A stretch of 64,000 nucleotides of DNA from NCBI RefSeq assembly GCF_020630935.1, contig NZ_JAHDIG010000003.1, positions 13,634 through 77,633 of the forward strand. The letters are read 5' to 3'. Shown one piece after another: positions 52,496-53,113 of the stretch. Below the pieces are notes generated by a model, which was given only the letters and a program-made list of their open reading frames with translations, was not told the DNA's origin and searched no databases. Position 1 is the first letter of the stretch. Each line of letters opens with the position of its first letter. Source of the stretch: Bernardetia sp. GTDB lineage: Bacteria; Bacteroidota; Bacteroidia; Cytophagales; Bernardetiaceae. The position numbers and the translations under genes were made by a program.

Positions 52496-52656
52496 TACAC
52501 TAATTAGGGTAAACGCACGAAACTTTTTATACTAGCTCACTTAGCTTTAAATAAACTTTACTTGTCAGAGTAATATAAATAATCAAAGTAAAAAAGAGCT
52601 TCTATTTGATTTAAATGGCTATACTTTTTTTTCGTGCGTTTACCCTATACACTAAT
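52496..52656. mobile_element. 143-bp MITE with perfect 18-bp inverted ends and 9-bp target duplication
   Basis: TIRs TAGGGTAAACGCACGAAA at 52505-52522 and its exact complement at 52630-52647. Both sides carry TACACTAAT (52496-52504 and 52648-52656), a clean target-site duplication. No coding frame inside, so it needs a transposase supplied elsewhere. The right duplication contains the stop of the lipoprotein gene. Confidence 0.9.
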
Positions 52657-53113
52657 CAAACCCAGTTTCTGAATAATACCACCTTTCTCCTACTTGTGTA
52701 AACTCATACGCTGCTCCACTAATAATCTGATTTTTAAAATTACGAGGCTCTTTCTTGTAATCATAGATTATCCTTTTCTCTGTGTCAAACATATTATCAG
52801 ATTTGTTTATGAAAATAACCAAGCTGTCACTATCCTCTATAAAGCCATGACAATATGAGCAATATGACTTATCTCCATTTTTTATGATTGAATCAATTCT
52901 TAACCTACGAAGATAAAATGTTGAGACCTCATCAATTTCATCTTCATCATAATAACCTTGAGGATACTTTTCTAGTTTTCCTATCAAATCACTCAACTCA
53001 TCTTCATAGTTCATCACATCAGTTTTTCCAAAAGGATTGCAAGAGGCTAATATCAGTATAAACAATAAAATTGTTGCAAATAAAAAATACACAGTATATA
53101 TTCTCATACTCAA
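52652..53113 (-). CDS. small lipoprotein of unknown function
   Basis: 153 aa. Signal II sequence with lipobox L-A-S-C25. Mature part is acidic with C86-x-x-C89 in S-Y-C-S-Y-C-H, a possible metal or redox site, and a tyrosine-rich end (R-W-Y-Y-S-E-T-G-F-D). Its TAG stop lies within the MITE target duplication. No family recognised. Confidence 0.6.
   Translation of the reverse strand: MSMRIYTVYFLFATILLFILILASCNPFGKTDVMNYEDELSDLIGKLEKYPQGYYDEDEIDEVSTFYLRRLRIDSIIKNGDKSYCSYCHGFIEDSDSLVIFINKSDNMFDTEKRIIYDYKKEPRNFKNQIISGAAYEFTQVGERWYYSETGFD

Follow-up and report, generated by a model that had tools for sequence, protein, structure and literature searches.

In this study, we analysed a 64-kb stretch of DNA (hereafter the window) from the Bernardetia genome G000, a 4.75 Mb assembly in 153 contigs, and relate a short element within it to its copies, its relatives and its likely source of transposase. 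The element occupies 52505-52647 (143 bp) and lies between two copies of a 9-bp direct duplication (TSD), immediately downstream of a lipoprotein gene whose stop codon falls within the duplicated bases. The features at the locus are as follows.

52496-52504, no strand: left copy of the TSD, 9 bp, TACACTAAT
52505-52647, no strand: MITE, 143 bp, non-coding, matching the genome's five other copies at 99% or 100% identity
52505-52522, plus strand: left 18-bp TIR, TAGGGTAAACGCACGAAA
52630-52647, minus strand: right 18-bp TIR
52648-52656, no strand: right copy of the TSD, containing the TAG stop of the lipoprotein gene (52652-52654, minus strand)
52652-53113, minus strand: lipoprotein ORF of 153 aa (called start TTG), not altered by the insertion; the orthologous site in G001 is empty

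An earlier note on this DNA had described 143 bp of non-coding DNA with perfect 18-bp ends and an exact 9-bp duplication, and each of these statements proved exact when the sequence was re-read. The two TSD copies match at all nine positions, the right TIR is the reverse complement of the left (18/18), and 107 bp of non-coding DNA separate them; no ORF of at least 60 aa is found inside the element. These two 18-mers are the only matches to the TIR in the 64 kb even when three mismatches are allowed, a search in which 0.01 matches would be expected by chance. The imperfect inward extension of the TIR similarity noted earlier is also present, in that pairing continues beyond the TIRs and the single strand folds more stably than its shuffles (z = -7.1), mainly due to the TIRs themselves. 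By direct reading, one frame of the TIR contains TAG and another contains TAA (TAGGGTAA); insertions in genes would therefore end translation soon.

The lipoprotein ORF, recognisable from the lipobox ILASC read in its sequence, ends at a TAG codon (52654-52652 on the minus strand) that lies inside the right TSD copy, as the earlier note had claimed. Elsewhere in the genus the gene is found in G001 alone, where the next gene is the same and the MITE is absent. No other orthologous site is available, and this one lacks the 143-bp insertion. The G001 orthologue ends at the same residues (GFD, then stop), and because this empty-site protein stops where the occupied one does, the gene product is unaltered; the earlier view that the gene had stayed intact therefore holds. 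The comparison of empty sites that had been proposed, made here with a relative, thus yielded an empty site, and fixation of the element in all relatives was not seen. Downstream of the orthologous lipoprotein gene, G001 carries a dispersed palindrome, GGTTCAAGCGTCGACGCTTGAACC (G001:C1:4833762-4833785, L239), which recurs in several places across G001, G003 and G004, is found nowhere in the window's genome or in G002, and forms the core of a 160-bp G001 element with the same TIRs (L184).

The search for further copies of the TIR suggested by the earlier note returned six 143-bp copies in G000 (on contigs C3, which is the window's own, C6, C27, C35, C40 and C88) and one decayed copy. The six are 99-100% identical, four of them 100% identical, and every one is flanked by a perfect 9-bp TSD (6/6), each different. 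These near-identical copies with their different TSDs support classification of the element as a MITE, and the perfect TIRs, intact TSDs and four identical copies agree with the recent movement that had been proposed. The seventh copy, on C11, is 128 bp long and 68% identical with one end ruined, and by its sequence appears to be an older, decayed insertion. The copies differ in where they landed: those on C6 and C88 lie between divergently oriented genes, and that on C27 (G000:C27:46132-46274, L028) cuts a lipoprotein ORF, which by eye from its sequence we take to be GDSL-like, after about 81 of 248 codons. Stop codons are occupied by two of the six, namely the copy on C3, with the stop in its TSD, and the copy on C35 (G000:C35:39673-39815, L030), which sits directly 5' of a TAG stop and whose own leading TAG takes over, leaving the protein unchanged. 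Targeting of stop codons was considered and rejected, as a stop lies within 9 nt in two of 148 intergenic flanks and the controls give 1.1%. The 27 nine-base TSDs share a high A+T content (77%, against 66% for the window) and a weak bias towards a purine at the first position (22/27) and a pyrimidine at the last (20/27). A reading frame is open into the element at 15 of 189 flanks (8%), compared with 24% at random positions in the same flanks; coding insertions are depleted, as selection would be expected to give.

The exact TIR is present in six of seven genomes of the genus, and neither it nor a version with one mismatch is found in four other genomes of the family (0/4). Four other genomes of the genus (G001-G004) carry a sister subfamily of the same 143-bp length, whose interior is 67% identical to that of G000 without gaps (72/107; shuffled mean 33.5 or 31%, maximum 49). 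A 9-bp TSD flanks 27 of the 28 short elements that were listed across five genomes in the genus. The MAG G002 holds 187 exact TIRs, nearly all of them MITE ends at contig breaks, and thus roughly 100 MITE copies. As copies are near-identical within G000 and within G002, each lineage seems to have multiplied a version of its own. The MAG also contains an 88-bp near-perfect palindrome (G002 L122 600-687, PFKD01000107.1) built from two left halves of the MITE in inverted orientation and flanked by its own 9-bp TSD, which is a mobile derivative whose two ends are identical. A third type of end, likewise carrying this TIR (TAGGGTAAACGCACGAAAAATATTTATATTTAGC, later ATGTCCAAATCTG), is found at G002 L101, L108 and L164 and is possibly the ISAs1 parent of the burst in G002.

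A further 13 contigs of G000 break off 49-55 bp into an element that has this TIR. Seven of these ends are of a 5' type, with the TIR reading CACGAAA and running to a start ATG-CAG, and six are of a 3' type, with one TIR mismatch (CATGAAA for CACGAAA), encoding ...QDYLEQVVFA-stop. Two pairs of 5' and 3' contig ends share perfect 9-bp TSDs, TTGATGTTC at C56/C72 and TTATAATTG at C117/C141. We infer that short-read assembly lost the interior of a multicopy IS, of which these 13 ends are the edges. In the relative G004 an element of 1,174 bp is fully assembled, with both 18-bp TIRs perfect and identical to those of the MITE. Its transposase starts MQDS and ends DYLEKLIFS-stop, matches the NCBIfam model transpos_ISAs1 (NF033564; E 3.9e-97, 325 bits against a cut-off of 70) as well as Pfam DDE_Tnp_1_assoc and DDE_Tnp_1, and is interrupted by two in-frame stops; given these stops and the lack of a TSD around it, the G004 element is a dead copy. 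The C-terminus encoded at the 3' ends in G000, QDYLEQVVFA-stop, matches KDYLEKLIFS-stop of the G004 element, and since the codons at the contig ends agree with an element whose transposase fits the ISAs1 model, the parent is assigned to the ISAs1 family. Within G000, searches with the transposase protein and with the family model did not find a full parent IS, its interior is absent at all 13 breaks, and the only transposase sequence assembled is a decayed fragment at C34. The earlier expectation of an active transposase with the same ends is thus borne out as regards the IS itself, by the 13 ends, the start and end codons of the transposase and the two TSD pairs; an intact, active enzyme stays putative, the interior being unassembled and the G004 copy bearing two stops.

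Taken together, the element is almost certainly a type I MITE whose transposase is supplied in trans by an ISAs1-family IS. As a non-autonomous DNA transposon without a gene of its own, it would depend on the DDE transposase of the resident IS, which would bind and cut the matching 18-bp ends in trans. A staggered 9-bp cut at insertion, once filled in, would give the 9-bp direct duplication; at this locus the cut would have spanned the lipoprotein stop, and the duplication would have preserved a stop at the gene's side, with no change to the protein. We further infer that the ISAs1 transposase moves the MITE and remains active. A simple origin of the MITE by internal deletion of the IS was considered and found no support, as the G004 element shares with it only the TIRs (over 18-23 bp) and a single match of 14 bp.

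The interior of the MITE, unrelated to the G004 IS, together with a parent interior that is unassembled in G000, would also fit mobilisation by another transposase recognising similar ends, with the ISAs1 ends being a coincidence or a fellow passenger. We consider this very improbable, since all 18 bp of the TIR agree with the ISAs1 ends in G004 and with the 5' end of the IS in G000, TSD length is 9 bp for both MITE and IS in G000, and within the family matches to the TIR pattern are confined to the genus, where the IS also occurs. Less credible still is retention for the host, with the hairpin after the stop giving the lipoprotein mRNA a structure or a terminator, or the interior being a structured RNA: the length of 143 bp and the gapless interior identity kept by the two subfamilies and the strong single-strand fold would suit it, yet a terminator search made no call at the element, an Rfam search gave no match, covariation does not exceed that obtained by shuffling columns (3 double-change pairs against 1.5 expected; 66 of 500 shuffles as high), stop codons are not preferred and the orthologous site in G001 is empty. 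RNA structure in the interior was likewise discarded as a candidate, RNAalifold giving a few double changes but named stems no better than shuffles. Selection on the 107-bp interior for other reasons (e.g. end pairing, a host-factor site or a fixed end-to-end spacing), as opposed to its being filler, is unlikely, if less so than either of these alternatives. If true, it would explain why two subfamilies across five genomes hold to a length of exactly 143 bp and an interior identity of 67% despite separate amplification per species.

Among known systems, the MITE has the same 18-bp ends and 9-bp TSD as the ISAs1-family IS, whose ends are present in G000, and differs from it in lacking a transposase, with only the termini in common. 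The TSD of RUP and Correia elements is TA. A 9-bp TSD and ISAs1-type ends set the Bernardetia MITE apart from Correia/NEMIS, RUP and ERIC, the small mobile repeats of bacteria reviewed by Delihas (PMC2229807). Its anatomy matches the general definition given there, sharing with those repeats a length of 100-200 bp, TA at the ends, A+T-richness, TIRs, a TSD, a stable stem-loop and stops in frames. Another parallel is MITEAba12 of Acinetobacter, which is 113 bp long with 16-bp TIRs and 9-bp TSDs, is attributed to ISAba12, and has one copy that sits in a gene and supplies a stop (PMC6382973). Both are short, A+T-rich and non-coding, with perfect or near-perfect TIRs, a 9-bp TSD and a parent IS inferred from common ends; they differ in TIR sequence, parent IS and host phylum, and in that MITEAba12, unlike the Bernardetia MITE, has been seen moving. 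Our literature search found no account of MITEs in Bernardetia, and the accessible portions of publications naming both ISAs1 and MITEs do not describe the 143-bp element.

In conclusion, the element is real, recently mobile and ordinary in kind, and it leaves the understanding of MITEs unchanged. Its practical value lies in annotation and assembly, as these repeats break both the G000 draft and the G002 MAG. It provides a clean example of a MITE whose carrier is an ISAs1-family element, complete with the ends of the parent, an empty site and sister subfamilies.
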